From: Paracoccus sp. MA
GTDB lineage: Bacteria > Pseudomonadota > Alphaproteobacteria > Rhodobacterales > Rhodobacteraceae
NCBI RefSeq assembly: GCF_020990385.1
Contig: NZ_CP087598.1
Coordinates: 2,113,001-2,177,000 of the forward strand
DNA length: 64,000 nt
Reading direction: 5' to 3'
A program made the translations under genes and the position numbers. Below, piece by piece: positions 24,602 to 44,840 of this stretch. A model generated the notes under the pieces. It saw nothing but the letters and a program-made list of their open reading frames with translations. It searched no databases and had not been told where the DNA came from. Each line of letters opens with the position of its first letter. The stretch's first letter is position 1.

Positions 24602-25029
24602 ATGACAGAGGATCCGGAAACGCTGCGAATCCCTGATCGCCCGGATGTGGGCCTTCGGGGTCTTCTGGTCCATGCCCCGGATGCGCATGTCCTCGACCCT
24701 CGCTGACGATCACAGCGTCAGCCCAACGGAAACGACGGCACTGCCGGCCCGGAAAATCGCGCTCGGCAGCTGGACTGTAACCTACGATGAGGGCCTTGCC
24801 GGGCAGATCGCGGCATTGCGCGCAGAACGCCTGCCGCACGGAACCGGCGGCGTGCTGCTCGGCATCACCGGCAAACCGCCACTCCGTTCACATCGTTACG
24901 GCTCTGCCGGCGCCGCGGGACAGTTCTGGCAGCGTCACCGCCTTTGAGCGGGGCATGTGCGGCCTTGCCGCCACCGTCAAGGAAACAGCTTTAAGGAATG
25001 CCCCGGCGCAGCTTTTGAGAGCGTCGTAG
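24602..25029 (+). pseudogene. Frameshifted remnant of a JAB/Mov34 isopeptidase domain
   Basis: Two frames together encode a piece of a prokaryotic JAB domain. In one (24726-24875) WTVTYDEGLAGQIAALRAER leads to HGTGGVLLG, the strand that carries the domain's glycine motif. In the next frame (24886-25000) the sequence continues as HSVHIVTALPAPRDSSGSV and TAFERGMCGL, matching the following strand and helix. One extra base (or two lost) near 24870-24885 joins them. The metal-binding HxH...SxxD part is absent. In bacteria such domains occur with E1/E2-like enzymes in ubiquitin-like and CBASS systems. An upstream frame from 24602 (MTEDPETLRIPDRPDVGLRG) also looks protein-like but is unassigned. Confidence 0.5.
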
Positions 25030-25154
25030 ATCTGCAAAAGGCCGGGAGCGACGGCGCCGGGTGCCAAGCGTTATTGGTAGCCATGGTCCGTCACCGGTGC
25101 ATGGAGCCATGACTTTGATGGGGCGTAAGACGAGAGGCAGAATGATCGCCTCAT

Positions 25155-25219
25155 GAAAAAAGGCAGGACTCTCTGAAACGCCACACCAAGCGATGGCAGG
25201 GGTCAGGTAGTCCTGCCTT
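25155..25219 (-). terminator. Inverted repeat with T-run, terminator-like
   Basis: AAGGCAGGACT (25160-25170) and AGTCCTGCCTT (25209-25219) pair over a 38-nt loop. On the minus strand the right half is followed by TTTTTT. It lies between the truncated IS3 element and the JAB remnant and could mark the end of a lost transcript or an element boundary. Confidence 0.4.
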
Positions 25220-25254
25220 CAACGAGGGAAAGAAATGCGTGAAAACAGTGGGGC

Positions 25255-25664
25255 CTGGCGACGGATCGAGAGCCGTTCGTGATCGGGATCAATCATCATT
25301 CTCCTCCGATCCAGGCTCAGCGATCGAAGGCTTTGGCCAAAAAATCGCGCTCGACGACGAGCTGGCCGATCTTGGCGTGCAGCTTCGTGACCTCGGCCTC
25401 CCGGCCGACCTGTGCGTCGGAAGCCTTGTCGTCGAACGCCTTGGCCAGGCTCTCGATGGCCTGCCGCTTCCACTGCGTGATCTGGTTGGGATGAAGCTGG
25501 TGTTTCGTGGCTAACTCCGAAATCGTCCGCTCGCCGCGGATCGCCTCAAGCGCGACCTTGGCCTTGAACTCGGCCGTAAACCGTCTGCGTGTCTTCATGC
25601 TGGATCGTCCTTTTCATCGGTCGATCCACCTTATGCCCCTGTCTCAGAAACCGGCACCACCTCA
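25255..25664 (-). mobile_element. Truncated IS3-family insertion sequence
   Basis: The remnant holds a complete orfA and only the first residues of orfB. The likely outer end is at 25664, where the minus strand begins TGAGGTGGTGCCGGTTTCTG, an IS3-type TG terminus. The other end is missing: the orfB frame (MIDPDHERLSIRRQ at 25255-25299) breaks off abruptly at about 25254 in unrelated sequence. The outer end abuts the broken repC frame, so this element probably removed the 5' part of that gene. Confidence 0.75.
25317..25598 (-). CDS. IS3-family transposase OrfA
   Basis: This 93-residue protein is the DNA-binding half of an IS3-family transposase. It starts MKTRRRFTAEFKAKVALEAI, has the helix-turn-helix TISELATKHQLHPNQITQWKRQAIE, and ends in the leucine-zipper-like helix EAEVTKLHAKIGQLVVERDFLAKAF. 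In intact elements a frameshift near its end adds the catalytic OrfB. Here OrfB survives only as about 15 residues, so the element cannot move on its own. Confidence 0.85.
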   Translation of the reverse strand: MKTRRRFTAEFKAKVALEAIRGERTISELATKHQLHPNQITQWKRQAIESLAKAFDDKASDAQVGREAEVTKLHAKIGQLVVERDFLAKAFDR

Positions 25665-26750
25665 GACATCGGCATCGGCCTTGCCCGGCGAGATGCACTC
25701 CTGCGCATGATGCGATCCACATCGGTAAGTGACTGGACCGATCCACACCGCGATCCGGTTTGCTATCGCGCGCAGCAGGATATGGCCGCGGAGATAGGCA
25801 TCACGGACCGTGCCTTGCGCGCCCATGAGCGGCAGTTGGAGGCGCTTGACCTGGTGCTGATCGACACCGCGGCCGATGGGCGACGATCCGGGGCGGAATT
25901 GAGCGGTGGGCGGCGTTTGGGAATTAATTTCCGGCCGCTCATCCTGCGTGTGGGCGAACTGATCGCCTGTGACCGCGACCGCCAGGCCGAGAGCCGGAGG
26001 ATGCAGGCCCTGCGGCTGGAATGCTCGGCGCTGAAGCGTGATGTTCGGCGCGCCATCGAGCGCCTGGTCGAACTGGATCCGCGGCATCCTGCCCTTGGAT
26101 CGTTCCTGCAAGCCTTCGCGGCTTGGCCAAGGCGCTACGCCGGTTTTCGGTCAGTTGCTCTGCTTGAGGGCCACCTGGCGGAAATCCGATTCGTCTATGA
26201 CCAACTGGCCGAGATCCTGTCATGTCGCGCAGATTCTTCCGGCGTGTCGGAATCCGAGATTCCGGCGATACTAAATACAACTCTAAAGAATCCTGAAATC
26301 TGTAGCGGTTCCTCCGCCAATGAACGGCCGGCCCGCAAGCGGGCCGACGACAGTTCCTCTATGGCTGGGCCTCATGGCCCAGCCAATTGCAAAGAAAAAA
26401 GTGTCGGCGGGGCCGGACCGAATGGCAACCCCGATGATGTGAGCTGGATCAGCCCCCAGGTCATCCGGCAGATCGCCGGGCCATGCTTCCTTGAGCGCCT
26501 GGACCATCATTGCTCGGGCGGCGCGATCACCGAACGAGCTATGCGTTCGGCAGCATTCGAACTCGCAGGCTGGCTGGGCATCAACGAAAGTGCGGTCCTG
26601 GAAGCCATGAACGTGTTCGGAGACTTGCGCATGGCCCTTTGCATCCTGATCATCGAAGCGAACATAGGGCACCCAACCCATCCTATCCACAGTCCAGGTG
26701 GGGCGTTGCGAGATGCACCGGCAGGGCATAAGCATCTATATATAGTATAA
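25665..26750 (+). pseudogene. repC: RepC-type plasmid replication initiator, N-terminally truncated
   Basis: The frame is open from the IS3 end and reads LARRDALLRMMRST at its start; the first available ATG is 25707 (347 residues). The N part has the RepC winged helix (PVCYRAQQDMAAEIGITDRALRAHERQLEALDLV), then GRRLGINFRPLILRVGEL. The C part has RMALCILIIEANIGHPTHPI followed by SPGGALRD, the closing motif of RepC proteins, but then ends about 15 residues later than the motif and short of the usual tail. RepC starts replication of repABC-type plasmids and carries the origin within its gene. No repA or repB is adjacent. With both ends damaged it is likely inactive. Confidence 0.7.
26260..26384. 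other. AT-rich patch with two hairpins inside repC (possible origin relic)
   Basis: Within the linker between the two RepC domains the base composition drops sharply (ATACTAAATACAACTCTAAA region, 26268-26300). It is followed by two perfect stems: CGGCCCGC/GCGGGCCG (26329-26346) and GGCTGGGCC/GGCCCAGCC (26363-26384). In repABC plasmids the origin lies in an AT-rich part of repC, so this may be its remains. That reading is inference. Confidence 0.4.
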
Positions 26751-27033
26751 ACAAACGACCTCGGCAGGGAGTTTATCGTTAGAGCAGGTCCCGGACCATT
26801 CACGGCGTTTGACTATATAGACGTCGAATGGGGACAGTACACATCGACATCCAGAGATTGGGTCCCACCAGAAAACAGGGTGCCACAGGACACATCGCTT
26901 ATCACCGAGGGAAGCGACTTGTCCGATACTTTTCTAAAGATGGCTTTCTTTGCCCAATTGGTTGGGCTTTCGCGGATCTTCGCACCACTTCGCATCCGGG
27001 GTCTTCCGACGTCCTCCGATGTCTTCCGCCTTA
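26751..27033. other. AT-richer intergenic remnant between repC and the IS5 element
   Basis: This 283-bp stretch has lower G+C than the chromosome and no convincing gene. A 68-codon open frame from 26828 has no ribosome site and ends at the IS boundary. It is probably plasmid-derived filler or a decayed gene cut by the insertion at 27034. Confidence 0.4.
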
Positions 27034-27884
27034 GGTCGTGTTGACAAAAGGGATTCCTCTGGCAGTCGTCCTATGATTCAAGCTCATCTCTACGTGGGAG
27101 ATGAACTTGGCACGCAACCTGATATCCGACGATGAGTGGACCTTCTTCGAGGGCTTCATTCGTGCCGTCCGGCACCCTAACGGGCGGAAACCTGCGGACC
27201 ATCGTCTTGTTCTGAATGGTATATTCTGGATCGCAAGGACTGGTGCGCCATGGCGCGATCTGCCCGAAGAGTTTGGCAAGTGGTCCTCGGTCTACCGTCA
27301 GTTCCGCCGCTGGACTTTGGCGGGACTGTGGGAGGATATCCTGGATGCGCTGAACCACGCTGGGATCGCGCCAGACAAGCTCCAGATGGTTGATAGCACT
27401 GTGATCCGCGCCCATCATCATGCGGCGGGCGCAAAAGGGGGACTCCGAAAGAGGCTCTTGGCCGTTCGAGAGGTGGCTTCTCGACCAAGATCCATCTCCG
27501 CGTCAACGGCGCAGGCCTCCCGATGAGGACCGAGATCACGCCGGGGCAGGATTCCGACTACACCGGCTATGATATGGTGATGGCCGACAACCTGCCGCAA
27601 CCAGCAGTTCTGGTCGCCGACAGGGGCTATGACTCTGATAAAATTCGGGAAGACATCGAGAGCCGCAACGCCCTGCCCATGATACCGATGCGAAGGAACC
27701 GAAGGGTGCGCAAGGCTGTCGACATGACCATCTACACCCTGCGCAACATGGTCGAGCGCTGCTTCAACAAGCTGAAAAATAGCCGCCGCCTTGCAACCCG
27801 CTACGACAAAACCGCCGAAAGCTTCCTTGGCTTCGTCGACGTCGCCTGCATCAGGCTCTGGCTCCGCCATTTGTCAACATGACC
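27034..27884 (+). mobile_element. IS5-family (IS427-like) insertion sequence, apparently intact
   Basis: The element is 851 bp. Its ends are near-perfect inverted repeats: GGTCGTGTTGACAAAAGG on the left and, read inward from the right, GGTCATGTTGACAAATGG. Both ends are flanked by TA (27032-27033 and 27885-27886), fitting the 2-bp target duplication of this group. It encodes a transposase in two overlapping frames joined by a predicted -1 frameshift. Confidence 0.88.
27101..27882 (+). CDS. IS5/IS427-type transposase, produced by -1 frameshift
   Basis: The first frame (27101-27526) has the DUF4096-like N part (LISDDEWTFFEGFIRAVRHP, APWRDLPEEFGKWSSVYRQFRRW) and the first catalytic Asp in VDSTVIRAHHH. 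At the slippery A AAA GGG GGA (27433-27442) a -1 slip gives GGTPKEALGRSRGGFSTKIH, the family consensus, and continues to 27882. That second frame supplies the second Asp (LVADRGYDSDKIRE) and the Glu (RNMVERCFNKLKNSRRLATR). Reading without the slip ends in a short missense tail. The fused product is about 260 residues and looks functional. Confidence 0.85.
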
Positions 27885-27949
27885 TAGTGCAGATATTCGT
27901 GTCACACAACATCGGTCGCCGCGCCGCGGGCTGAGGCTTCGGCGCCGGC

Positions 27950-30133
27950 TCAGCCGGGCTGGCAGACGAAGGCCTCCAGCGTCTCGGGGTCGATGGGCTT
28001 GAAGAGGATCTGCAGCCCGGCCTGGCCGGCGGCGCGCCGGGTTTCGGGGCTGCGGTCGGCGGTGATGATGCGGGTCGGGCGCAAGCCGAAGCGGCGGTGC
28101 AGCGCCTGCGCCGTCTCGACGCCGCTGGGGCCGTCGCCCAGCTGCTGGTCCAAGAGGTAGATGTCGGGGATGACGCCCATCTCCTCGACCAGGGTCAGCG
28201 CCTCGCTGCCGCTGGCGGCCTCGACCACCTCGACGCCGCGGCGTTCCAGCAGCTGCGCGATGGCGCTGCGCAGGTCTTCGTCATTCTCGACCAGCAGCAC
28301 GATGCGGTCCATGCCCGCCTCGGGCGGGGGCGTGGCGGCGGGGGCCTTGCTGCCGGCGCGGGGCAGGTCATGCGCCAGGGGCAGCTCGACCGAGAAGCGG
28401 GTGCCGCGGCCCGGCACCGAATGCAACCGCAGCCGGTGGTCCAGCAGCGCGCAGGCGCGCTCGACGATGGCCAGGCCCAGCCCCATGCCCTGCGCGGCCG
28501 AGGCGGTGCCCTCGACGCGGTGGAACTCGCGGAAGATCGCCTGCTGGTGCTCGGGCGCGATGCCGGGGCCGGTGTCGTGGACCTCGATGCGCAGGCTGCC
28601 GCCCTGGCGGCGCACGCCGACCAGCACCCGCCCGGCTTGCGTGTAGCGGATGGCATTGCCGATCAGGTTCTGCAGGATGCGCCGCAGATAGGCCGCGTCG
28701 CTTTCCACCGCCAGTTGGCAGGGCATGATGCGCAGTCCCAGGCCCTTGGCGGCGGCCAGCGGCGCGAATTCGTCGGTCAGCTGCGCCAGCAGCAGCTCCA
28801 TCGACAGGGGCGCGATCTCGATCTCGGTGCCGCCGGATTCCAGCCGCGACAGGTCCAGCAGCGCTCCCAGGATGCCCTCGACGCTGAGAAGCGCGTTATG
28901 CGCCTTTTCCAGCGTGGCGCGCAGGGCGCTGTCGCCGGCATCGTCGCGGGCCGAGGCGACGAAGAGCTTGGCGGCCGAGAGCGGCTGCAGCAGGTCGTGG
29001 CTGGCCGCCGCGACGAAGCGCACGCGGGCGGAATTCGCGCGCTCGGCATTGGCCAGCGCCGCGGCCAACTCCTCGGTCCGGGCGGTGACGCGGGCTTCCA
29101 GCGTGGCCTTGGCCCGCAGCATGGAATGGATCGCCAGCCGTTCGCGCGTGACATCGGTAAAGGACATCACGAAGCCGCGCTCGGGCATCTCGCGGCCATG
29201 CACGTCCAGGATGACCCCCGAGGCGTGCCAGAGCTCGAAGGACAGGGGCAGGCGCGCGCCGCGCATCCGCACCCATTCGCGCAGCTGCGAGGCCGAGAAG
29301 CCTTCGTTGAAGCGGGCCTGATACAGCATCCGCACTGCCAGCCGCTCGAAGCTCAGCCCGCGATGCATCAGCGCCGCGGGGATCTCCAGCAGGTCCGCGA
29401 GCCGCTGGTTCCAGCCGATCAGCGCGCCATAGGCGTCGAAGATGCCGACGCCCTGGTTGATATGCTCCAGCGTCGCGCGGATCATCCGCGCCTGGTTGTC
29501 CAGCAGCTTGCCATGCTCGATACGCTCGGTGCGGATGATGCGGGTCACGTCGGTATGCAGGACCACCGTGCCGCCGTCGAGCGTGCGCTGCTCGCTGACC
29601 TGGATCCATCGGTCGCCGGTCAGGCCGATGTTGAAATGCTGCGGCTGCTCGTGGCGCCGCATCCGCTGGGCGATCCAGCCGTCGGCGGTCAGCCCCTCGG
29701 GCAGCAGCACCTGCCGCGACCGGCCCAGCAGCTCGACATAGGCCGCGAAGCCGATGCCGGGGACAAGCGCCGGGCGCACATCCGGCAGGTCGGCGCAGAA
29801 GCGGCTGTTGCACAGCACCAGCCGGTCCTCGGCGTCGAACAGCGCGAAGCCTTCCTCGATCGCCTCGATGGCCTGCGACAGGTCGCGGCGGGCGCGCTCG
29901 GCGGTGGCATTGGCGGCATTCAGCCGCTCCAGCGTCGCCTCGAGATCGCAGGTGCGCTGGCGGACGCGCTCCTCCAGCAGGGCGGCGCGGCGGAATTCCT
30001 CGAAGGCGGCGTTGTTCTCGTCCCGGCGCTCCTCGGAATGGCGCATCAGCACCTCGGCGATGACCAGCAGCTTCTCCAGGTTCTGCCCGGCATCGTCGTT
30101 ACGGTCGATGAGCCAGTCCGAGATGCGCGCCAT
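27950..30133 (-). CDS. Soluble hybrid histidine kinase with two PAS domains and a receiver
   Basis: The 727-residue protein has no membrane helix. In order: an N-terminal coiled coil (residues 30-90), PAS domain 1 (about 90-205, AIEEGFALFDAEDRLVLCN), PAS 2 (about 220-335, HINQGVGIFDAYGALIGWN), a second coiled coil, the HisKA box FVAAASHDLLQPLSAAKLF with the phospho-His near residue 390, the ATPase domain (NLIGNAIRYTQAGRVLVG, HDTGPGIAP, QGMGLGLAIVERA), and a C-terminal receiver with the acceptor Asp in YLLDQQLG. It overlaps the FIST gene by 4 bp. The layout resembles the kinases that control PQQ ethanol oxidation in Pseudomonas. Confidence 0.9.
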   Translation of the reverse strand: MARISDWLIDRNDDAGQNLEKLLVIAEVLMRHSEERRDENNAAFEEFRRAALLEERVRQRTCDLEATLERLNAANATAERARRDLSQAIEAIEEGFALFDAEDRLVLCNSRFCADLPDVRPALVPGIGFAAYVELLGRSRQVLLPEGLTADGWIAQRMRRHEQPQHFNIGLTGDRWIQVSEQRTLDGGTVVLHTDVTRIIRTERIEHGKLLDNQARMIRATLEHINQGVGIFDAYGALIGWNQRLADLLEIPAALMHRGLSFERLAVRMLYQARFNEGFSASQLREWVRMRGARLPLSFELWHASGVILDVHGREMPERGFVMSFTDVTRERLAIHSMLRAKATLEARVTARTEELAAALANAERANSARVRFVAAASHDLLQPLSAAKLFVASARDDAGDSALRATLEKAHNALLSVEGILGALLDLSRLESGGTEIEIAPLSMELLLAQLTDEFAPLAAAKGLGLRIMPCQLAVESDAAYLRRILQNLIGNAIRYTQAGRVLVGVRRQGGSLRIEVHDTGPGIAPEHQQAIFREFHRVEGTASAAQGMGLGLAIVERACALLDHRLRLHSVPGRGTRFSVELPLAHDLPRAGSKAPAATPPPEAGMDRIVLLVENDEDLRSAIAQLLERRGVEVVEAASGSEALTLVEEMGVIPDIYLLDQQLGDGPSGVETAQALHRRFGLRPTRIITADRSPETRRAAGQAGLQILFKPIDPETLEAFVCQPG

Positions 30134-31287
30134 CAGCCGGGCTCCGCCAGTTGCGTCCCCGGCGGGTAGATCGCGCAGCCGGTCAGGGTGTGGTTGACAT
30201 GCAGCGGGCCGAATTGCTCGCCATAGGTGGAAAAGCCCCAGACGCGATGCCGGCGCAGCACTTCCGAAACGGCACCGCCCAGCTGCTTCTGCTCGGCCTC
30301 GATGCGGCGCAGCACGCAGTCGAAGCCCAGCACCGCCACCGGCGGCACCGGCCCGGCCAGCTGCGACAGCCGCCGGTCCAGATGCGCGGGCAGGTCCTCG
30401 GGCTCGGTCAGCGCCAGCACCACGCCCGCGTCGATGGCCGAAAAGAACAGCAACTCGCCCGAAGGCAGCACGCGTTGCACCGCCCGCACGTGATAGCGGC
30501 CGCCGACCCGCACGGCGAGCGGATGCGCGGCAAAGGTCAGGTAGTCGATCAGCGCCGGATCCTTGCCCAGGATGCGGGCGTATTCACGCGCCGCCGGCTC
30601 GGCATTGATGCGCTGCACGATGCGGGCGGCGGGGTCGGCCCGGGTTACCACCATGCGCCGCTCGGTCGGGTGCAGGTGGTCCATGTTCAGCGCCCGCACC
30701 GGGCAAAGCCCGCGCAGCACCGACAGCACCGCCGCGTTGCGCAGCGCCCGGCCGCGATGCAGGACCAGCGTTTCCCGGAATCGCAGCCCGTCCCCGGCCG
30801 ATCCGCCGATCAGCGGCACATGGCCCGAGCCGGCCGCCAGTGCCGAGGCCAGGTCGTCCTCGCAAAGCGACAGCCCGTCGACCAGCAGCAGGGCGAATTC
30901 ATGCGGCAGATGCGCCTGCGCACCCGCGAGATCCTGGCGCAGTTGCAGGAAGGCCGCCGCCGCGGCGCTGCGCGACAGGCGGTCGAGGTCGGTCAGCTCC
31001 AGCACCTCAGCTGCGAAAAGTCGCGAGGGGAATCCCAGCGCCAGCACCGCGCCTTCGTCATAGCCCGCCTCCGAGATCTCGCCGGCGGTGGTACAGCCGA
31101 CGACATGGGCGGCGGGCAGGCGCGCCGCGGTCTCGGCAGCGATGCGCGCGACGTCGGCCCGGGGCGAGACAAAGAGCATGACCAGCGCGAAGGGCCCGGG
31201 ACCAAGGCCCCGCGCCAGCCGGCCGGTCACGTCGGCGTCCTGCGCCGGCGCGCTGGCCCGCGCGATGCAATCCTGCGCTGCGCTCAC
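30133..31287 (-). CDS. FIST domain sensory protein
   Basis: This 384-residue protein matches the FIST N plus FIST C domains, a ligand-sensing module thought to bind small molecules such as amino acids. The N domain shows VVGCTTAGEISEAGYDEGAVLALGF near residue 45, and the C domain has VRALNMDHLHPTERRMVV and LPSGELLFFSAIDAGVVLALTEP. No signal peptide is seen. Placed between a response regulator and a histidine kinase with overlapping genes, it probably feeds a signal into that kinase; this is inference from context. Confidence 0.83.
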   Translation of the reverse strand: MSAAQDCIARASAPAQDADVTGRLARGLGPGPFALVMLFVSPRADVARIAAETAARLPAAHVVGCTTAGEISEAGYDEGAVLALGFPSRLFAAEVLELTDLDRLSRSAAAAAFLQLRQDLAGAQAHLPHEFALLLVDGLSLCEDDLASALAAGSGHVPLIGGSAGDGLRFRETLVLHRGRALRNAAVLSVLRGLCPVRALNMDHLHPTERRMVVTRADPAARIVQRINAEPAAREYARILGKDPALIDYLTFAAHPLAVRVGGRYHVRAVQRVLPSGELLFFSAIDAGVVLALTEPEDLPAHLDRRLSQLAGPVPPVAVLGFDCVLRRIEAEQKQLGGAVSEVLRRHRVWGFSTYGEQFGPLHVNHTLTGCAIYPPGTQLAEPG

Positions 31288-31326
31288 CCCGGCCTCCCTT
31301 CCGCTGTCGCGCCTCCTCCGTCAGGC

Positions 31327-37629: not shown

Positions 37630-38238
37630 ATGGTCGTATTGCGCACCCTCCGCAGGGCCCGGAGCCTGCGGTCCCGCCCCGGAATCGGGGCATTTCTCCT
37701 GCTTCTGGCGGGGGTTTTCCCCTTGGCCGTCGCGGCCGAGCAGCCAGTGCTGTTCGACGAAAGCGGCTATCGCCTGGACGGCTATCGCGCCCCGGTTCCC
37801 GAAGCGGTGCCGGGGGCGAGGACGCTCGACCTTGCGCAGGTGCGGGCGCTGATCGGCCAGGGCTGGATCCCGGTCGACGTGATGGGCGCCCGGGTTTTCG
37901 GGATCGGCGCCGACGGCACATGGATCCTGCCCGAGCGGCACCGCTCGATCCCCGGCGCGCGTTGGCTGCCGGTGGTCGGCTGGGGCCGGCTGGAGCCATG
38001 GCAGAGCGATTATCTGGATGCGAGCCTGGAGCGGATCACCGGCGGCGACCGCAAGGCGGGGCTGATCCTGTTCTGCAAGTCGGATTGCTGGCTCAGCTGG
38101 AACGCCGCCAGGCGCATCGCCGGGCGCGGCTATGTCAACCTGGGCTGGTTCCCCGGCGGGGTCGATGCCTGGGCGGATGCCGGCCTGCCGCTGGTCGAGA
38201 TCCGGCCCGAGCCGCATCGCGGCAGCTGGTCGCGCTGA
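37630..38238 (+). CDS. PQQ-dependent catabolism-associated CXXCW motif protein
   Basis: This 202-residue exported protein (signal MVVLRTLRRARSLRSR..., hydrophobic core LLLLAGVFPLAVAAE) carries the namesake motif LILFCKSDCWLSWNAARRI near residue 150, then GYVNLGWFPGGVDAWADAG, a rhodanese-like C-terminal section. Family members occur only in genomes that oxidise alcohols with PQQ enzymes; their activity is unknown. It is divergent from the cytochrome c550 gene with 82 bp between starts, which must hold both promoters. Confidence 0.86.
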   Translation: MVVLRTLRRARSLRSRPGIGAFLLLLAGVFPLAVAAEQPVLFDESGYRLDGYRAPVPEAVPGARTLDLAQVRALIGQGWIPVDVMGARVFGIGADGTWILPERHRSIPGARWLPVVGWGRLEPWQSDYLDASLERITGGDRKAGLILFCKSDCWLSWNAARRIAGRGYVNLGWFPGGVDAWADAGLPLVEIRPEPHRGSWSR

Positions 38239-38259
38239 TCGCCGCCGCCCGGCGGGGGG

Positions 38260-38690
38260 TCAGCCATGCGCGACGGTCACGGTCTTGAGGCGGGTGAAGC
38301 CGTAGAGCGCCTCGAAACCCTTCTCGCGGCCATGGCCGGATTTGCCGACCCCGCCGAAGGGCAGCTCGATGCCGCCGCCGGCGCCGTAATTGTTCACGAA
38401 GACTTGGCCGCTGCGGATCTTGCGCGCCAGCCGCAGCTGGCGCGCGCCGTCGCGGGTCCAGATGCCGGCGACCAGCCCGTATTCGGTACCGTTGGCGATG
38501 CGGACCGCCTCGGCCTCGTCCTGGAAGGGGATCAGCACCTGCACGGGGCCGAAGATCTCCTGCTGGGCCAGCGCATGGCCGGGATCGACCTCGGAAAACA
38601 GCGTCGGCAGCACGAAATGCCCGCCCGGCGCGGCATCGGGATGCAGCTTGCCCTCGGCCGCCAGGGTCAGCTCGGCCTTGCCGCGGTCGA
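38260..38690 (-). pseudogene. Aldehyde dehydrogenase, C-terminal fragment
   Basis: Only the last 140 or so residues survive. They begin near IDRGKAELTLAAEG and include GGHFVLPTLFSEV, EIFGPVQVLIPFQDEAEAV, GLVAGIWTRD and FGGVGKSGHGREKGFEALYG, the usual ALDH C terminus. The catalytic Cys and Glu and the NAD site are missing. At about 38685 the frame runs into plasmid parB sequence on the other strand, so the fragment marks a breakpoint. Its place beside exaA suggests the intact gene once oxidised acetaldehyde. Confidence 0.8.
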
Positions 38691-39340
38691 TGAAGCCTAT
38701 GAGGCCGAGGGCGGGCGCGTCACCACCGACCTCTTTGCCGACCAGTCCTATTTCGAGGACGAGGCCCTGCTGCACGAACTGTTCACGGCCAAGCTGGAAG
38801 CTCACGCCGGCACCATCATTGCCGATGGCTGGAAATGGGCCGAGCCGATCCGGGACAGCTATGTCGGCTATTACGAGATCGAGCAACGCAAGCTGGATCG
38901 CATCTATGCGCAGGAAGGAGCCGCGCGAGATGTATGGCAAGGACCTGGCCAAGTCCTTCCGGACCTTCCGTCAGAAGGGGCAGGATCACACGCGCGGCGA
39001 GTTGATCCGTTGCCTTGCCGCCCTGTTTCGGGGCGGCGACGAGCAGCTTTCCGCCCTGATCGACAAGGCCATAGCCCCGCAAATCCGCGAAGTCTGGACC
39101 CCGACCGCCGCCAATTTCTTCAGCCGCGTCGGCGGGCCTTACCTGAACGAACTCTGGCGCGACCTGCTGGACCTGCCGGAAGATCACCCGACCGCAACAA
39201 CCTTCGCCAAGCTGAAAAAGGCCGAGAAGGCCGCGAAGCTGGAAACCCTGTTCAGTGACGATGCCACCCGCAAGGCCCATGGCGTCACCGAGGCGCAGGC
39301 CGCGCGGATCGACGCTTGGCGGCCCGAAGGTATGGAGTGA
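38685..39340 (+). pseudogene. parB: Plasmid ParB-like protein, truncated and internally deleted
   Basis: Two blocks of a plasmid-type ParB/RepB-nuclease protein remain. The first (38685-38925) reads VDEAYEAEGGRVTTDLF, FEDEALLHELFTAKLEA, ADGWKWAEP and QRKLDRIYAQEG. The second, in another frame from an ATG at 38930 (136 residues), reads DLAKSFRTFRQ, LIDKAIAPQIREVWTPTA, NFFSRVGGPYLNELW and ends ARIDAWRPEGME. In intact relatives about 200 residues lie between these blocks, and an N-terminal ParB domain precedes them; both are missing here. By chance or selection the second block has an AAGGAG site before its ATG. Confidence 0.72.
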
Positions 39341-39387
39341 CCGAGGCGCGGGGCGCGCAAGCGCCCCGCTCATCGAGGGTGAGAAAC

Positions 39388-39822
39388 ATGCGCTTTATCA
39401 GGTATCCCCGCCATCCCTTCACCGATAGCAGCCGCAAGCGCGCTGCACTGCGCCGCAAGCAGCGTCTCGAACGCGATGCCCTGCCCCTCTTCGCCGAACA
39501 GATCGCGGAGGAACAGCCCGGCGAGGATGAGGTTATGCAGGACCGTGCCATCCGGTGGGCGGAAAGCCAGCAGCGAACCCGTGATGCCCGCGCCGCCCGC
39601 TGGCGCGAGGCCCGGCGCAGGCTTGCCGCCCTGACCGACAAGGAGCGCGCGGTCCTGCTGGCCGCATGGAACCGCGCGCCCTACCCCGCCGACCCGACAT
39701 ATCTGCTGGATTTCCTGCACGGCTATTCTGTCGGGTGCTTCACGCTGGACACAATCCCCTTCGACCAGGTGCCGCGCAACAAGCACGGGCACCGGATGCA
39801 AGAGCATCAGGAAAGGACGTAA
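39388..39822 (+). CDS. Plasmid-type hypothetical protein (144 aa)
   Basis: This is a soluble, strongly charged protein of 144 residues. An Arg/Lys-rich N half (DSSRKRAALRRKQRLERDAL, RDARAARWREARRRLAALTDKERA) leads to VLLAAWNRAPYPADPTYLLDFLHGYSVGCFTLD. The second half suggests a small globular domain. I recognise it only as the sort of gene found downstream of plasmid parB in Rhodobacterales. The ATG at 39388 follows GAGGGTGAGAAAC. It precedes the zinc-finger gene by 3 bp. Confidence 0.6.
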   Translation: MRFIRYPRHPFTDSSRKRAALRRKQRLERDALPLFAEQIAEEQPGEDEVMQDRAIRWAESQQRTRDARAARWREARRRLAALTDKERAVLLAAWNRAPYPADPTYLLDFLHGYSVGCFTLDTIPFDQVPRNKHGHRMQEHQERT

Positions 39823-39825
39823 GAC

Positions 39826-40059
39826 ATGGCCGATTTCACCGCCTTCCGACACCCTGTCCTTGCCGTTGCCTGCCCGGCCTGTGGCGCGGCCGCCGGCACC
39901 TGGTGCCGCCGGCCGAGCGGCCACCGCGCGGCCGATCTGCACCGCGCGCGCGGCATCGAGGCCGACCGGGTTTTCATCGACCAGCACGGCCCGGACGCCT
40001 CGATCATTCGCATTGCGTCTGGCTGGCAGGTCGATCCCCGAGGGCGAGCCAGAGATTGA
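39826..40059 (+). CDS. Small zinc-finger protein
   Basis: This 77-residue protein has a CPACGAAAGTWCRRPSGHRAADLHRARG block, that is CxxC...C...H/H, matching short zinc-ribbon-like proteins of phages and plasmids. The C half (ADRVFIDQHGPDASIIRI) is unassigned. It lies 3 bp after the 144-residue gene and 2 bp before the next, so the three are probably one operon. A DNA-binding role is likely but not shown. Confidence 0.65.
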   Translation: MADFTAFRHPVLAVACPACGAAAGTWCRRPSGHRAADLHRARGIEADRVFIDQHGPDASIIRIASGWQVDPRGRARD

Positions 40060-40061
40060 AC

Positions 40062-40391
40062 ATGCCTGCACAACCATGGAGACGCCTTGACTGGACCCTG
40101 CCCGAGTGGATCGCCCATGCGTGGAAGCTGGAACGCACGTTGCGGTGCAGCCGGCAGCACTACGACGCCTGCACCCGCCATGTGCAGCGGTTTCCCGGCC
40201 AACTGGTCGCGGTCGAGCTGGATAGGGCTGTCCTGCTATCCCTGCGCCAGCTCATGCTTGATGGACACCCTAACCGCTTCGGGCGGCCGGGCCGAGGCAA
40301 TCGCGTCGGGGACTGGACGACCCGCGCCTTGATGGACGTGAATAATCAGCTTGCCCGGCTCGATCGCATCGAGCGCCGCAACACGCTCTGA
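40062..40391 (+). CDS. Plasmid-type hypothetical protein (109 aa)
   Basis: This 109-residue soluble protein begins MPAQPWRRLDWTLPEWIAHA and continues with a basic and aromatic section (RQHYDACTRHVQRFPGQLVAV) and a helical C terminus (ALMDVNNQLARLDRIERR). No domain is recognised. It closes the three-gene set that starts at 39388 and is followed by an intrinsic terminator at 40417. Confidence 0.55.
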   Translation: MPAQPWRRLDWTLPEWIAHAWKLERTLRCSRQHYDACTRHVQRFPGQLVAVELDRAVLLSLRQLMLDGHPNRFGRPGRGNRVGDWTTRALMDVNNQLARLDRIERRNTL

Positions 40392-40415
40392 AATATCCTT
40401 GTGGTGAGGATGACT

Positions 40416-40535
40416 GGCCGCCCCCTTGGGGCGGCTCTTTTCTTTGCCCTGTTCCTAGTGTTCGCCGGCGGCGTCGCCCTGGCAAGCCAGAACGCCGGCG
40501 ACGGCGCGGCGCTAAGGCCGCGCCGGGCCCGCTGC
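40416..40535 (+). repeat. 120-bp direct repeat, copy 1 (contains a terminator)
   Basis: This segment recurs at 41546-41664 with only a handful of differences and one T deletion. It begins with a terminator hairpin (GCCGCCCC/GGGGCGGC, 40417-40435, then TCTTTTCTTT) and continues through TGCCCTGTTCCTAGTGTTCG to the GGGCCCGCTGC end. Confidence 0.9.
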
Positions 40536-40613
40536 ATGGCCAGAAGCAGGGCATTGCCGTGTTGCATTTGGTTCGAAATATGGTATCAATTTTAGCATGA
40601 AAAGAGGCTTGAT

Positions 40614-40910
40614 ATGACGGATTCTGAAAAAGGTGCGCTAGCAAAGCTCGCGCTGTTTGCTCTGGGAGCATTCGCCATCCTTCGCCTGACGTATACAGAC
40701 GGCTGGAGGTTTGACACGGTCCTGGGGTCAGCGGCGAATGCGGCGTTGATCGTGGGCGTCCTCGCCCAGATCGCACTGGAAATGCTGGTGCGCTTCGCTC
40801 CGGATAGCTGGCTTCCGGACGATTTGCTCGCCGAATTGCCGAGATGGCAAACAGGGGTGGTCTTGCTGTCCTTGATCGCTGCCTCGGTCAGCCTGCTCAT
40901 CGCTCAATGA
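40614..40910 (+). CDS. Small membrane protein (98 aa)
   Basis: This protein has three hydrophobic helices: residues 8-24 (AKLALFALGAFAILRLTY), 40-60 (ANAALIVGVLAQIALEMLV) and 78-96 (TGVVLLSLIAASVSLLIA). Charged ends suggest an N-in topology. I recognise no family. AGAGG lies seven bases before the ATG. It stands between the two copies of the 120-bp repeat with the StbDE-like pair. Confidence 0.6.
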   Translation: MTDSEKGALAKLALFALGAFAILRLTYTDGWRFDTVLGSAANAALIVGVLAQIALEMLVRFAPDSWLPDDLLAELPRWQTGVVLLSLIAASVSLLIAQ

Positions 40911-40931
40911 ATGACCTTGTGGAGATTGAAT

Positions 40932-41177
40932 ATGCAACGTGTTGAAGCCCAGATTGCGGTCAGTGTCTCTGATCTGAAGAAAAGCCCGACCGCAATCATG
41001 GATCAGGCGCAAGGCGAGGCCGTCGCCGTGCTGAACCACAATCGCGTCATGGCTTATATGGTCCCGGCCGATGTTTACGAGGCGATGATGGAGCGGCTGG
41101 ACGACCTGGCGCTTGTCGATGTCATTAAGGCCCGGGCGGATGAAACGCCGATCAGCGTGGGCCTCGATGACCTTTGA
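40932..41177 (+). CDS. Antitoxin, Phd/YefM (StbD-like)
   Basis: This 81-residue protein has the Phd/YefM fold start QIAVSVSDLKKSPTAIMDQAQGEAVAVLNHNRVMAYMVP, followed by an acidic C tail (LVDVIKARADETPISVGLDDL) that would wrap the toxin. Its stop codon overlaps the toxin start, giving tight co-translation. Antitoxins of this type also repress their own promoter. It is typical of plasmid stability modules. Confidence 0.83.
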   Translation: MQRVEAQIAVSVSDLKKSPTAIMDQAQGEAVAVLNHNRVMAYMVPADVYEAMMERLDDLALVDVIKARADETPISVGLDDL

Positions 41178-41469
41178 GCTTAAGTTCCTGCCATCCGCAC
41201 TGAAGGAGTGGAAAAAGCTCGGTGCCACGCTTCGGGAGCAGTTTCGGAAGAAGCTGGCCGAACGTCTGGAGCAGCCCCGTGTTCCTGCTGATGCGCTGCA
41301 TGGTCTGGAAGATCATTACAAGATCAAGCTCCGCAGCGCCGGCTACCGACTCGTCTATCGCGTAGAGGATGCAGAAATTACCGTCACAGTGGTCGCAGTT
41401 GGTCGTCGCGAACGAAGCGAGGTGTATAAAGCTGCAAGCGCACGGCGCGATGATCGACCCAAAAGCTGA
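41167..41469 (+). CDS. RelE/StbE-type mRNA interferase toxin
   Basis: This 100-residue protein matches the RelE/ParE fold: MTFELKFLPSALKEWKKLG at the N terminus, LRSAGYRLVYRVEDAEITVTVVAVGRRER in the middle strands, and a basic C tail. StbE/RelE toxins cleave mRNA on the ribosome. The start at 41167 lies within the antitoxin's last codons. Downstream is copy 2 of the 120-bp repeat with its terminator. Confidence 0.83.
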   Translation: MTFELKFLPSALKEWKKLGATLREQFRKKLAERLEQPRVPADALHGLEDHYKIKLRSAGYRLVYRVEDAEITVTVVAVGRRERSEVYKAASARRDDRPKS

Positions 41470-41930
41470 CGTCCATTCTGGACCTTGAGAAGCGGCAGAT
41501 AGTTTCGGGAGGATCCACGCAGGATCATCAGACCAGGCGCAGCGTGGCCGCCCCCTCGGGGCGGCTCTTTCTTTGCCCTGTTCCTGGTGTTCGCCGGCGC
41601 CGTCGCCCTGGCAAGCCAGAACGCCGGCAACGGCGCGGCGCTAAGGCCGCGCCGGGCCCGCTGCGCGGCAGAACCGTCGCGCCATCGGTCGCGTCCGGCT
41701 GCTAACCCGGCCAGCGTCAGGCGCCGGCCGGGGCCGGACCTATCCACCACCACACGGATCTTGTCATTCTACCACACTGGTCAAGGACGGCGGCCGCGCG
41801 AGCGCGGCCTTGCAAGCGGCCCGTGCCGGGCCGTCCCTGACTCAGCGTGTTCGCATGCCTGCGACCGTTCGGGGCGGCTAGAGCCTCGCAATCTTCGGTC
41901 TCATCGCTTACATTTCACAAGGAGCATCCA
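41470..41930. other. 461-bp non-coding stretch with repeat copy 2
   Basis: No convincing gene. It contains copy 2 of the direct repeat (41546-41664) and, further right, a GC-rich stretch with several small palindromes (for example CGGCCGCGCGAGCGCGGCC at 41792-41810). These could be remains of a plasmid regulatory or transfer region; I see no definite oriT. Confidence 0.5.
41546..41664 (+). repeat. 120-bp direct repeat, copy 2 (contains a terminator)
   Basis: This is the second copy of 40416-40535. Its terminator stem is 41547-41554 with 41558-41565, followed by TCTTTCTTT. It follows the StbE-like toxin gene. Both copies end genes read on the plus strand, and the membrane gene plus the toxin-antitoxin pair lie between them. 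Confidence 0.9.
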
Positions 41931-42125
41931 ATGAGCGACGCCGACATGACCACCGCCGAACAGTCCCTTGCCGATGATAAGATGCGGGCCGAGATCGCCA
42001 AGCTGATCGCGGAAACCTCGAAGATCAATGCCGAGGCCCGCTGGTATCCGCTGGCCGTCGCCACCGGCCTCGTCGGCGCCATCGCTGGCCTGACAGCCTT
42101 CATCATCAAGCTTTTCGGTCTCTGA
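41931..42125 (+). CDS. Small membrane-anchored protein (64 aa)
   Basis: This 64-residue protein has an acidic helical N part (MTTAEQSLADDKMRAEIAKLIAETSKINAEA) and one C-terminal membrane helix (LAVATGLVGAIAGLTAFIIKLF). A strong AAGGAG site precedes the ATG at 41931. The pattern of a coiled helix plus TM anchor is common in plasmid and phage accessory proteins. The function is unknown. A terminator follows at 42131. Confidence 0.65.
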   Translation: MSDADMTTAEQSLADDKMRAEIAKLIAETSKINAEARWYPLAVATGLVGAIAGLTAFIIKLFGL

Positions 42126-42300
42126 CCAATGCGGCCCCTTCGGGGGCCGCTTTAACTTCAACCGGCCGCAGCCTGGTCGTTCTCTTCCCCGCCAGTAATG
42201 CGGAATCGGCCGCGACCGAGGCGGCGCGGAACGGCCGCGGATCATCGTGCAGATCGGCCCAGGCATGGCCCGTCCAGAACGTCGCAACGTAGAGCTTCAT
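42106..42300 (-). CDS. Small hypothetical protein (64 aa)
   Basis: This protein begins MKLYVATFWTGHAWADLHDDPRPFRAASVAAD and has an Arg-rich C end. GAGGGATCAGCC before the ATG at 42300 is a usable ribosome site, and the gene lies 10 bp after vapC in the same direction, so co-transcription with vapBC is likely. It overlaps the end of the convergent 64-residue gene by 20 bp, which lowers confidence that both are real. Confidence 0.45.
   Translation of the reverse strand: MKLYVATFWTGHAWADLHDDPRPFRAASVAADSALLAGKRTTRLRPVEVKAAPEGAALVRDRKA
42131..42150 (+). terminator. Terminator after the 64-residue membrane gene
   Basis: GCGGCCCC pairs with GGGGCCGC over a TTCG loop, followed by TTTAA. It ends the 41931 message. 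Confidence 0.65.
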
Positions 42301-42310
42301 GGCTGATCCC

Positions 42311-42736
42311 TCACGCCATATCGGTTTCCGAAAAATCCCCGCCCTTGTAAAGCAAGGGCAAACGGTAGGCTTTGGCGCAGGCGTAGGACAGGGCGTCGCC
42401 CATGTTCAGCTGCGCCGGGTGGCCGACCTGCTTGCCGTAGATCGACAACGCCCGGATCGCTTCCTTCCCCATCCCCGTGGTGACGTGCATCTCTTGCGCC
42501 TCCGCCGCCTCGATGAACCCGTCCACCAGCTCGGCCGCCGCGGCAAAGTCCTCGGCTGCCGCCGGGCCCTTGCCGCGAGCCTGCACCCTCGCCCGGACCA
42601 GGGCGAGCGTCGCTTCCATCCGCACGACCGGCGAGAACCGCAGCGTGCCGCGCGAGGCCTCCATCGCTTTCAGCAACCCGGGCGCTTCCGGCTCGTTCAG
42701 CAGCACCGCAACCACCGCGCTTGCGTCCAGGAACAT
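42311..42736 (-). CDS. vapC: VapC-type PIN domain ribonuclease toxin
   Basis: This 141-residue toxin has the PIN acidic residues: Asp in MFLDASAVVAVLLNEPEAP, Glu in RMEATLALVRARV near residue 40, and Asp in LNMGDALSYACAKAYRLPLLYKGGDFSETD near 110-135. VapC enzymes cut tRNA or rRNA and are held by VapB. The start at 42736 overlaps the vapB stop as ATGA. Confidence 0.88.
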   Translation of the reverse strand: MFLDASAVVAVLLNEPEAPGLLKAMEASRGTLRFSPVVRMEATLALVRARVQARGKGPAAAEDFAAAAELVDGFIEAAEAQEMHVTTGMGKEAIRALSIYGKQVGHPAQLNMGDALSYACAKAYRLPLLYKGGDFSETDMA

Positions 42737-42981
42737 CAGTCCTCGCTCCATTGCTCGTCAAAGAACGGCTTCAGGTCTTCGCCCATGCTGACGAAACCCG
42801 CCTCGGCCGCGCGGCGCTGGATCTTCCCAACCCGATCCACAAGCCGTTCCTCGGCGGCAAGCGCCTCGATTTGCGCGGCAAGCGCCTTGCGCACCGCCTC
42901 GGATTTGTTTTTTACGCCGGTCATGGCACAGTATTTGGCGACTAGCGCGTCGATCTCATCGCCCTTGATAAGTATTGCCAT
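42736..42981 (-). CDS. vapB: VapB-type antitoxin
   Basis: This 81-residue protein begins MAILIKGDEIDALVAKYCAM and has KNKSEAVRKALAAQIEALAAEER, the pattern of the type II VapB ribbon-helix proteins (PSK operon Rv0623-like). Its acidic, Phe/Trp-ending tail (FFDEQWSED) fits toxin binding. ATG at 42981 has AGGA eight bases upstream; a GTG at 42996 is less likely. The AT-rich sequence just upstream probably holds its own operator. Confidence 0.85.
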   Translation of the reverse strand: MAILIKGDEIDALVAKYCAMTGVKNKSEAVRKALAAQIEALAAEERLVDRVGKIQRRAAEAGFVSMGEDLKPFFDEQWSED

Positions 42982-42997
42982 TTGTCTATCCTGCACA

Positions 42998-43036
42998 GTA
43001 TATCTTATATATATAATTAGGTATATACTTTTGCAA
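42998..43036 (-). promoter_or_regulatory. AT-rich promoter/operator of vapBC
   Basis: On the minus strand this reads AGTATATAC, then an AT-only spacer, then GATATACT, an imperfect inverted repeat just before vapB. Its near absence of G+C in a GC-rich genome, and its position, fit a promoter bound by the VapBC complex. Confidence 0.6.
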
Positions 43037-43126
43037 GGAGGATGAATTTCGATACATGGCCGCCGTCGATCCCAGAGGCGGCGTCGCTGCAGGCATCGGT
43101 GTCGACGAGGCTGCGCCAGTCGCTCT

Positions 43127-43279
43127 TCATGTCCCGAACAAATGAGGATCGGTGAGATTATGGAATTTTATCAAAAAGATCCCAATCGCCAGCCCCAGGG
43201 TGACCAGGACCAGCGGGGCGGTCAGCAAAAGCAGGACCAGAACCGTGAAAATCGGGGCCAGCGCGGCTGACCCGATCAT
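43127..43279 (-). CDS. Possible 50-residue single-helix membrane protein
   Basis: The frame from 43279 reads MIGSAALAPIFTVLVLLLLTA, then VLVTLGLAIGIFLIKFHNL, two close hydrophobic stretches. There is no good ribosome site and no recognised family. A longer start at 43360 is possible. Given the small size I rate it as tentative. Confidence 0.3.
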   Translation of the reverse strand: MIGSAALAPIFTVLVLLLLTAPLVLVTLGLAIGIFLIKFHNLTDPHLFGT

Positions 43280-43382
43280 GCGGTGACCGCCAAGGTCACC
43301 GCACCGGGACAGTTGCTCAGCACGGAATCCGCAACGCCCTGCCATCCCCCGCGTCGGCAACCAGCACCCGGCGGCTGAACCG

Positions 43383-44432
43383 GGCTCTGTTGCATAACTC
43401 AGGTGATGGGCGCGGTTACCCCCTCCCCGGACAGACTTATCCTACAGCTTCCGTGACCGGGATGCCGAGCGCGGTGTAGCCGTTCAGGACGGCGATGCGG
43501 ATCTGGAACTCGGCGACCTGACGGTCGAAGTCCCTTGCCATGAGCCGCTGGCCCAGCAGTTTGACACAATGCATCTTCGTCTCGATGCGGCTCCGGCGGT
43601 GGTATCCACTCCATCGTCGCCACAGGGTGCGGCCGAGATACCTGGACGCCCGGAGGGCCTCGTTGCGCGCGACGGCTCCAGCGGTGATGGTCTTCCAGGT
43701 CTTCGCGTTCCTGCGCGGTGGGATGACGGCATGGGCTCCGCGATCTGCAATCGCATCGTGGCACTTGCGCGTGTCGTAGGCGCCATCTGCCGTGACGCTA
43801 CCGATTTCCTGGTCCTCCGGGATCTGGTCGAGAAGGTCAGGTAGGATCGGCGCATCGCCGACGTTGCTCCCGGTGATCTCGACAGCCCGGATCTCTAGCG
43901 TTTCCTCGTCGATCCCAAGGTGGATCTTGCGCCAGACCCGCCGTTTGGGGCCACCATGCTTGCGAGCGTGCCACTCGCCTTCGCCCTCGACCTTGATTCC
44001 TGTGCTGTCGATCAGCAGGTGCAGCGGCCCTTTGGAGCCGCGATACGGGATGTTCACAGCCAAGGTCTTCTGGCGGCGGGACAGTGTGCTGAAGTCAGGC
44101 ACCGTCCCGTCGAGGCCAACCAGACGCAGCAGGCTCTCGACGAACCCGGTCGTCTGCCGGAGCGCCATGCCGAATAGCACCTTCATCGTCAGGCAGCTCT
44201 GAATGGCAGTATCGCTGTAGGTCTGCTGGCGGCCACGCCTCCCCGTCGGCACGGCATCCCAGCTCATCTCGGGGTCGAACCAGATCGTCAGCGAGCCCCG
44301 GCGCTTGAGCGCTTCATTGTAGGCTGGCCAGTTTCTGGTCCTGTAGGTTGGCGGTGTGGGTCTGCTCATACATCACAGCTACCACCCTGGATTCACGATC
44401 TGAATCCCTGACGGGATTTGTGCAACAGAGCC
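43383..44432 (-). mobile_element. IS5-family (IS903-like) insertion sequence
   Basis: The 1050-bp element has inverted ends: GGCTCTGTTGCATAACTC at the left and, read inward from the right, GGCTCTGTTGCACAAATC. One transposase gene fills it. The 9-bp flanks (GCTGAACCG and GAGGTGAAA) do not match, so there is no target duplication; the element may have recombined with another copy or had a flank deleted. Confidence 0.88.
43437..44369 (-). CDS. IS903-type transposase
   Basis: This 310-residue DDE transposase shows RTRNWPAYNEALKRRGSLTIW at its N terminus, the first Asp in HLLIDSTGIKVEGEGEW near residue 120, the second in SVTADGAYDTRKCH near 195, and the Glu in HRRSRIETKMHCVKLLGQRL near 260. The reading frame is uninterrupted and complete, so it could be active. 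Confidence 0.92.
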   Translation of the reverse strand: MSRPTPPTYRTRNWPAYNEALKRRGSLTIWFDPEMSWDAVPTGRRGRQQTYSDTAIQSCLTMKVLFGMALRQTTGFVESLLRLVGLDGTVPDFSTLSRRQKTLAVNIPYRGSKGPLHLLIDSTGIKVEGEGEWHARKHGGPKRRVWRKIHLGIDEETLEIRAVEITGSNVGDAPILPDLLDQIPEDQEIGSVTADGAYDTRKCHDAIADRGAHAVIPPRRNAKTWKTITAGAVARNEALRASRYLGRTLWRRWSGYHRRSRIETKMHCVKLLGQRLMARDFDRQVAEFQIRIAVLNGYTALGIPVTEAVG

Positions 44433-44840
44433 GAGGTGAAAGATCGATTCCGCATCGTTGACCGCGAGATTGCTGACCTCTGCACTTAGATGCCTTAGTA
44501 ACTTACGTGCAGCTCTAAATCATCACTCGACGGAGTCAGCTTCTGCGTTCATGGATTCGTTGAACCGTACGGTCTCCACGGCCCAAAAGAGGTCGTTCGT
44601 ACTGGCCGCAGCCCGCCCTTATCACCGATCTGAGAGCAGAGGCGCCGCGCAGCAGACGAACCAGCGCCCATTATGAGCGCTTGATTGCGCTGCTGTATCG
44701 CGAGGCACCCTACCGCCGTCAACGCCGATAGTAGTACTCAATCGAGCTCCCTGAGCACTCGCAGGGTTCGCGCAGCACTATGCTGATAGATTCCAATGCC
44801 TTGGGGAAAGACGGGCCTCTTCAAGAGGCAACTTCCGCGA
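44433..44840. other. Intergenic remnant between the IS903-like element and tRNA-Pro
   Basis: No clear gene. One frame (about 44558-44731) looks protein-like, with YWPQPALITDLRAEAPRSRR and HYERLIALLYREAPYRRQRR before a stop, but it lacks a start and ribosome site. It may be the C-terminal scrap of a gene. Composition is less GC-rich than the surroundings. Confidence 0.45.

Follow-up and report, generated by a model that had tools for sequence, protein, structure and literature searches.

Paracoccus sp. MA carries on its main chromosome a cluster for the oxidation of ethanol-type alcohols (exa/ped) that lies between fragments of plasmid genes. It was studied in a stretch of 64,000 nucleotides (positions 2,113,001 to 2,177,000 of NZ_CP087598.1, hereafter the window), which lies within C2, a contig of 2,389,614 bp and one of three in the 4.47-Mb genome; its size and its pyk and leuB-type genes mark C2 as the main chromosome. 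Positions 25669–43045 of the window are very probably the decayed remnant of a solitary-RepC-type plasmid, which would have captured the exa/ped cluster whilst still a plasmid, entered the chromosome and gained insertion sequence (IS) elements; the region was also involved in a translocation. Central to this reading is the scar left where the cluster joins a truncated ParB-domain gene, which is also found on a free plasmid, pPAN1 of P. pantotrophus DSM 2944. The initial annotation had described an exa cluster with a damaged RepC on its left and a damaged ParB on its right, three insertion elements and two toxin–antitoxin pairs, and this inventory is confirmed here; a 3' fragment of an IS5 element and an integrase fragment are additions to it.

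From left to right, the region comprises an amidohydrolase gene, the IS5 fragment, the integrase fragment, DNA with a displaced tRNA-Pro flank and an IS3 remnant, followed by the RepC fragment, 230 bp, 92 bp common to pPAN1, an IS5 copy and the exa/ped cluster, and then by two ParB-domain pieces, small genes, a Phd/RelE pair, a VapBC pair, an ISPme2-like IS5 element and tRNA-Pro. Comparisons were made with a sample of 125 Paracoccus genomes including its own (124 others, numbered with the prefix G; loci fetched from genomes and plasmids bear the prefix L) and with 72,556 plasmid records. The plasmid-derived features are:

25669–26712, + strand: solitary RepC fragment, cut at both ends (93.2% DNA identity to 46009–47052 of plasmid unnamed2, P. 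pantotrophus ACCC10489)
26943–27034, + strand: stretch common to pPAN1, left of the cluster (97.8% to pPAN1 7272–7181)
27912–38697, − strand: captured exa/ped fragment, with ends equal to those found against G020 (98.5%) and P. sp. TOH p1 (92.7%)
33210–35060, − strand: pyrroloquinoline quinone (PQQ) alcohol dehydrogenase, exaA (PQQ_enz_alc_DH profile)
37630–38238, + strand: CXXCW protein (profile above cut-off)
38260–38697, − strand: C-terminal part of aldehyde dehydrogenase, ~141 aa (Aldedh profile 323–461 only)
38684–39340, + strand: ParB-domain gene in two pieces (residues 220–295 and 466–606 of a 606-aa protein)
39388–40056, + strand: two small genes of the backbone, encoding 144 and 77 aa (87–88% protein identity to pFER2)
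40614–41466, + strand: small gene and Phd/YefM–RelE/ParE pair (98–100% protein identity to pFER2; Pfam)
42311–42996, − strand: VapBC-type pair (PIN, PSK_trans_fac; 84–89% protein identity to pFER2)

The exa/ped cluster and its scar

The aldehyde dehydrogenase remnant runs directly into the ParB-domain gene, and the alignments to the two parents overlap by 14 bases (38684–38697), where there is only short identity. Across 38649–38883, which spans the scar, the window and pPAN1 show zero mismatches. When a 401-bp junction query was searched in the genus sample, with five candidates scored per genome, it was matched in full only in its own genome and at G059:C2:96110-96510, which sits at pPAN1 coordinates. 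In G020 (98.5% over 10,786 bp) and on P. sp. TOH p1 (92.7%) the cluster is uncut and shares both outer ends; in the former an open aldehyde dehydrogenase frame with a GQTC motif extends beyond the position of the scar, and in the latter an intact aldehyde dehydrogenase is annotated. Because the scar is letter-identical on pPAN1, it formed on a plasmid, and capture of the cluster most likely occurred once, in that setting.

Over 27885–38918 the window and pPAN1 share 98.8% DNA identity, and beyond the scar each has its own deletion in the ParB-domain gene: in the coordinates of the pTAV1 locus L009, the window passes from 15234 to 15746 and pPAN1 from 15637 to 17002, so that the 511 bp missing from the window are mostly kept by pPAN1, which is without another stretch that the window keeps. 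Since these later deletions differ, the window segment and pPAN1 are sisters that descend from a single plasmid, neither being the parent of the other. The sister (pHG42, NZ_CP044424) resembles the window in its exa/ped fragment, its scar and the order of its Phd/RelE and VapBC pairs; it differs in being a free plasmid with repABC and a relaxase, in its ParB deletion, and in having no IS5 element at the point that corresponds to window position 27035. Seven of the 11 cluster genes are 99.5–100% identical to pPAN1; lower values are found in 31327–35060 for the regulator (98.5%), a small gene (93.7%), the pentapeptide gene (95.7%) and exaA (99.1%), and G020 is 97.9–98.9% identical on the same four. 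This mosaic suggests a later exchange with a G020-like cluster in one of the two lineages.

The cluster encodes a PAS hybrid kinase, a FIST protein, a LuxR-type regulator, a small protein and a pentapeptide protein, alongside the PQQ alcohol dehydrogenase, a relay metallohydrolase, a SoxYZ-like carrier, the PedF cytochrome, the CXXCW protein and the 3' part of the aldehyde dehydrogenase gene. Four families that define a PQQ ethanol dehydrogenase (exa/ped) cluster score above their curated cut-offs: PQQ_enz_alc_DH (763 bits; cut-off 480), the quinoprotein-relay metallohydrolase (346; 300), CXXCW (178; 128) and PedF (176; 122). The aldehyde dehydrogenase, on whose state the initial annotation was silent, is truncated, with ~141 residues remaining of the 488 in an intact relative. 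The GQTC motif (residue 289 in the intact TOH protein), which we take to hold the catalytic Cys, is lost, and there is no intact aldehyde dehydrogenase within the cluster. Full-length frames remain for the PQQ alcohol dehydrogenase, PedF, the carrier, the metallohydrolase, CXXCW, FIST, the kinase and the regulator, and the genome has a single close ExaA (the next match is 41% identical) and one pqqC match, such that PqqC is encoded. Given these full-length frames and PqqC, the cluster is predicted to be probably still active in the periplasmic oxidation of ethanol-type alcohols, and we infer that aldehyde oxidation is left to other dehydrogenases.

The plasmid backbone

The RepC fragment matches the RP-C domain with 46.6 bits (cut-off 24.4) and, compared with a 415-aa relative, has lost ~36 aa at its N end and ~31 aa at its C end. 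Homology is confined to 25669–26712, and there is no DNA likeness upstream of 25669. The closest relative found is on plasmid unnamed2 of ACCC10489 (93.2% over 1044 bp), followed by that of pTAV1 (87.5% DNA identity over 743 bp); identity to the pFER2 protein is 53–57%. Against the RepABC_RepC equivalog the fragment scores 58.4 bits and the intact ACCC10489 relative 76.4, both below the cut-off of 150, and the place upstream where repA and repB would be expected in a RepABC replicon is taken by the IS3 remnant. The initiator is, on its profile scores and neighbourhood, a solitary RepC and not of the RepABC type. A second RP-C initiator (365 aa) lies next to a Mob_Pre-like gene elsewhere on the main chromosome (L091 5902–8353, C2 1665902–1668353) and is possibly another integrated small plasmid.

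When 21 proteins of pFER2 were compared with the window by tblastn (E <= 1e-4), 10 gave a match, and these lie in the same order with agreeing strands: RepC, ParB, two small proteins, a further small protein, antitoxin, RelE, a small protein, VapC and VapB. The 11 without a match include ParA, ssb, nrdH, DUF3768, DUF1738 and DUF4942; the type IV secretion genes were outside the query. The segment thus has the RP-C initiator subtype, albeit as a fragment only, and the gene order and strands of a solitary-RepC backbone, which is no longer intact as to initiator and other backbone genes. The VapBC side is 92.9% identical in DNA to unnamed2 of ACCC10489, the same plasmid that carries the best RepC match, and the last plasmid-backbone homology ends at 43045.

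Three known plasmids are informative. The first of these, pTAV1 of P. versutus UW1 (NZ_CP035285), has a solitary RepC, an intact 606-aa ParB-domain gene and the same toxin–antitoxin block on matching strands, but has no exa match, carries repABC too, and separates RepC from ParB by 66 kb forward or 35 kb the other way. In pFER2 of P. ferrooxidans (CP038200), RepC, ParB, the small genes, Phd/RelE and VapBC share order and relative strands with the window, whereas its RepC protein is more distant, there is again no exa match, and ssb, ParA-like and type IV secretion genes are present. Plasmid unnamed2 of ACCC10489 (NZ_CP058692) has the closest RepC found and a similar VapBC side, but transport genes instead of a match to the ParB pieces, and has repABC too. 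The claim that the RepC and ParB fragments stem from a plasmid, and from one plasmid family, is therefore borne out by the pPAN1 scar and by order and strands in pFER2 and pTAV1; they are not of unrelated plasmid types. A 130-bp direct repeat (93.8%; 40416–40545 and 41546–41673) lies on both sides of the small gene and the Phd/RelE pair. Three of the 72,556 plasmid records (pFER2, pTAV1 and pPAN1) have this repeat, each of them twice, and the pFER2 interval includes a methyltransferase as well, which would fit an exchangeable cassette.

The ParB-domain gene was reinterpreted. Its pieces (76 and 141 residues) are joined at 38915–38918 by a 511-bp internal deletion relative to pTAV1, and its intact 606-aa relatives have weak matches to ParB_N (27.6 and 27.5 bits; cut-off 26.3) and HTH_ParB. 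In both pTAV1 and pFER2, DUF3768 precedes the 606-aa gene, and ssb and nrdH lie further upstream; in neither is ParA adjacent, and repA/repB or a ParA-like gene is found elsewhere on these plasmids. Similar ParB-domain genes occur in the leading region of F-like plasmids. The description of this ParB as a plasmid maintenance or partition gene is unsupported, and to speak of a lost partition function is not justified. Nor was it damaged after integration, as had been proposed: the alcohol cluster had already disrupted it on the plasmid, as the identical scar on pPAN1 indicates.

Chromosomal site and rearrangement

The insertion elements and the borders of the segment comprise:

23717–24485, − strand: N-formylglutamate amidohydrolase gene and upstream stretch (Pfam FGase); its right edge is the edge of the rearrangement
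24486–24594, − strand: 3' fragment of an IS5-family transposase (77–78% to pPAN1 and pTAV1; plasmid copies annotated IS5)
24614–24708, − strand: 95-bp fragment of a site-specific integrase (78–81% to plasmids; two of the three listed are so annotated)
25147–25186, + strand: copy of the native flank 3' of tRNA-Pro, now displaced (matches of 26–40 bp, 85–96%, beside tRNA-Pro in 5 of 14 relatives)
25252–25665, − strand: IS3-family remnant (orfA, HTH_Tnp_1), ending where RepC starts (67–83% to IS3 elements among the matches listed)
27035–27884, + strand: IS5-family element within plasmid-derived DNA, missing at the pPAN1 point, with TA at both edges
43376–44436, − strand: ISPme2-like IS5 element (99.7% to a P. 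ferrooxidans copy), beyond the last backbone homology
44881–44957, − strand: tRNA-Pro(cgg) (ARAGORN), at the left end of a conserved 46-kb core block that reaches tRNA-Lys at C2 2204254

For some of the intervening DNA no source was found: for 23580–23716 among the loci fetched, for 24708–25146 and 26713–26942 among the best 40 of 263 records, and for 44437–44612 among the best 20 of 425 records. The IS5 element at 27035–27884, whose transposase is in two frames, has 100% identical copies at C2 2219937 and 1923473 (537 kb of C2 were examined), and an identical copy is found ~1.3 kb from tRNA-Pro in P. kondratievae; because of these copies, a recent spread of the element is suggested. Recombination between inverted identical copies is not supported as the cause of the present order for the window copy, the flanks of which are contiguous in pPAN1.

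Homology with the 14 relatives compared at tRNA-Pro begins at its 3' end or no more than 60 bp from it. In five of the 14, a 26-base core of the flank lies 36–38 bp from tRNA-Pro (with up to five substitutions); in the window this core is at 25158, 19.7 kb from tRNA-Pro, a separation of flank and gene as in a tRNA-integrated island, and tRNA-Pro now adjoins another flank type, common to G073 and G118. Away from tRNA-Pro the core gave two further weak hits (five mismatches) in 3.8 Mb of partly overlapping loci, and five shuffled motifs gave zero. It seems that the native flank was pushed away by an insertion beside tRNA-Pro. The stretch 44613–44865 is 71% like L093 4713–4954 of G073, which lies 10 kb from the tRNA-Pro of that genome; a second copy, a weak one, of the flank on the tRNA side of the window is found there too, and the stretch may mark the distal boundary of an element at tRNA-Pro.

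In all 20 relatives fetched for the amidohydrolase neighbourhood, the 5' sides of the amidohydrolase gene and pyk stand head to head, with aligned pieces 2–163 bp apart; in the window the amidohydrolase gene is inverted relative to pyk. EamA, the neighbour of tRNA-Pro, is on the same contig as the amidohydrolase gene in 7 of the 20, at a distance of 130–818 kb, and in the others is on another replicon (one, G039), on another draft contig (six) or without a match above 38% identity (six). The expectation that relatives would have the amidohydrolase gene adjoining tRNA-Pro at an empty site fails, for the two are not neighbours wherever this is visible; with the pyk pairing, this distance also led to the rejection of a simple insertion between them. 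The other side of the amidohydrolase gene directly meets the tRNA-Met block in G076 and G116, and is separated from it by inserts in G118 (~12 kb), G026 (~5 kb) and G059 (~16 kb). The MA genome has the tRNA-Met block from C2 2222124, and its 85 kb from pyk to tRNA-Met consist of the inverted amidohydrolase gene, the plasmid segment, a 46.4-kb block and a further 17.8 kb. The last of these, from tRNA-Lys to tRNA-Met (L068 7255–20000, L069 1–5123), is in good part like plasmid modules (metal-ATPase/PepSY/ApbE) of Rhodobacterales plasmids. The 46.4-kb block from tRNA-Pro to tRNA-Lys (C2 2157881–2204266; window 44881 to L068 7266) is conserved in five compared genomes (G059, G053, G073, G082 and G039) but placed elsewhere, and in G039 (P. 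kondratievae BJQ0001) it is on the second chromosome. Judged by this synteny, the remnant is at a chromosomal translocation junction.

In P. kondratievae BJQ0001, the tRNA-Lys side of the block meets second-chromosome DNA, and near the tRNA-Pro side lie 20.7 kb (C2 1087346–1108067 of that genome; L097, L225) that are 99.2% identical to part, not the whole, of plasmid pKON1; in pKON1 this part is annotated with genes of a type III secretion apparatus and is flanked on either side by IS5-type matches. With matches of 1500 bp or more, no return of second-chromosome synteny was seen over 176 kb there, the comparison covering 60, 80 and 80 kb from three second chromosomes. In three genomes in which the block is unmoved, the best plasmid record covers 24% (G059), 4% (G053) and 11% (G073) of the outer flank. 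The idea that the block is a movable module whose tRNA borders are insertion hotspots, and that plasmid DNA at tRNA-Pro helps its relocation, inside the main chromosome in MA and to the second chromosome in P. kondratievae, is speculative and rather improbable; two cases against three are too few.

Origin of the segment

The history proposed here would begin with a plasmid whose backbone was of the kind found in pTAV1, pFER2 and unnamed2 of ACCC10489. On this lineage, illegitimate recombination brought in a 10.8-kb exa/ped fragment, of the type present on Paracoccus second chromosomes or large plasmids, and cut off most of the aldehyde dehydrogenase and the front of the ParB-domain gene, as the identical scar on pPAN1 shows. 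A sister of pPAN1 would then have entered the main chromosome, probably beside tRNA-Pro, as the displaced flank suggests; the initiator ends and other backbone genes would have been lost before or after entry, and IS elements gained. A translocation, visible as altered synteny, also moved the 46-kb tRNA-Pro/tRNA-Lys block and joined the region to the amidohydrolase locus. The earlier proposal of an integrated plasmid carrying alcohol oxidation thus stands as to its plasmid origin, and is unsupported as to a partition ParB, its loss after integration, and insertion between the amidohydrolase gene and tRNA-Pro.

Several observations weigh against this history, and bear on its rivals. The plasmid that carries the scar and is closest to the window, pPAN1, shows no DNA likeness to this solitary RepC, and none of the plasmids examined had RepC beside the exa cluster. 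The 230 bp between RepC and the pPAN1-like DNA are without a matched source (a comparison of 26700–26942 with the 124 other Paracoccus genomes gave nothing at E <= 1e-8), and an IS3 remnant abuts RepC. On a circular plasmid, moreover, the place of RepC relative to ParB–VapBC is informative only by strand and closeness, and the distance between them is 7.6 kb in pFER2 and 35 or 66 kb in pTAV1. It could therefore be argued that the RepC piece and the exa–ParB–toxin–antitoxin piece stem from two plasmids that IS-mediated deletions brought together. This is unlikely: both belong to the same backbone family with matching strands in pFER2 and pTAV1, and the RepC and VapBC ends are equally identical (93.2 and 92.9%) to one plasmid.

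The tRNA-Pro edge and the displaced flank would also fit a genomic island inserted in tRNA-Pro by a tyrosine integrase, with the plasmid genes as cargo, and prophages at tRNA-Pro and tRNA-Met are reported for P. aminophilus (PMC3925955). However, no integrase family was found among the 30 window open reading frames scanned (26 of them inside the plasmid-derived segment; the scan did not take in every frame), the only trace being the 95-bp fragment, and the 25-base 3' end of tRNA-Pro, when two mismatches were tolerated, was found in the window at 44881 alone, without a duplicate at the far side. An island of this kind is quite unlikely. As neither a tRNA 3'-end duplicate nor an integrase gene was found, site-specific integration at tRNA-Pro is not proven for the plasmid either. 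That the cluster is native to the chromosome, with plasmid fragments inserted independently on both sides, is very improbable. Its location on the main chromosome is all that was found to favour this, and it is contradicted by the exa–ParB scar shared with pPAN1. ExaA was matched (E <= 1e-250) in 20 of 125 genus genomes including its own; in the other 19, it is 527 kb from the amidohydrolase gene (G009) or on a different contig (18), which in draft genomes still leaves room for nearness, and none was seen with an exa cluster at the same chromosomal place without rep and par fragments. In close relatives of known replicon, ExaA is on the second chromosome (P. kondratievae) or on a plasmid (TOH p1, pPAN1). 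The decayed plasmid remnant, with the cluster captured before entry, is much the best supported account.

Implications

That catabolic plasmids integrate and decay is already known. The literature matches listed, with most subscription journals outside the coverage, included no paper about this locus, and the word 'ethanol' does not occur in the main text of PMC6940293. The novelty lies in a scar that also exists on a living plasmid, and in the connection to breakpoints located at tRNA genes. The locus would represent the capture of a catabolic cluster from plasmid to chromosome in which a scar orders the steps, with capture on the plasmid first and decay after, and with decay proceeding separately in two descendants, one a free plasmid and the other chromosomal. 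Apart from this chromosomal copy, no close ExaA was found in the genome. The region also reveals tRNA-gene breakpoints on either side of a core block, which in at least one other Paracoccus species is situated on another replicon.

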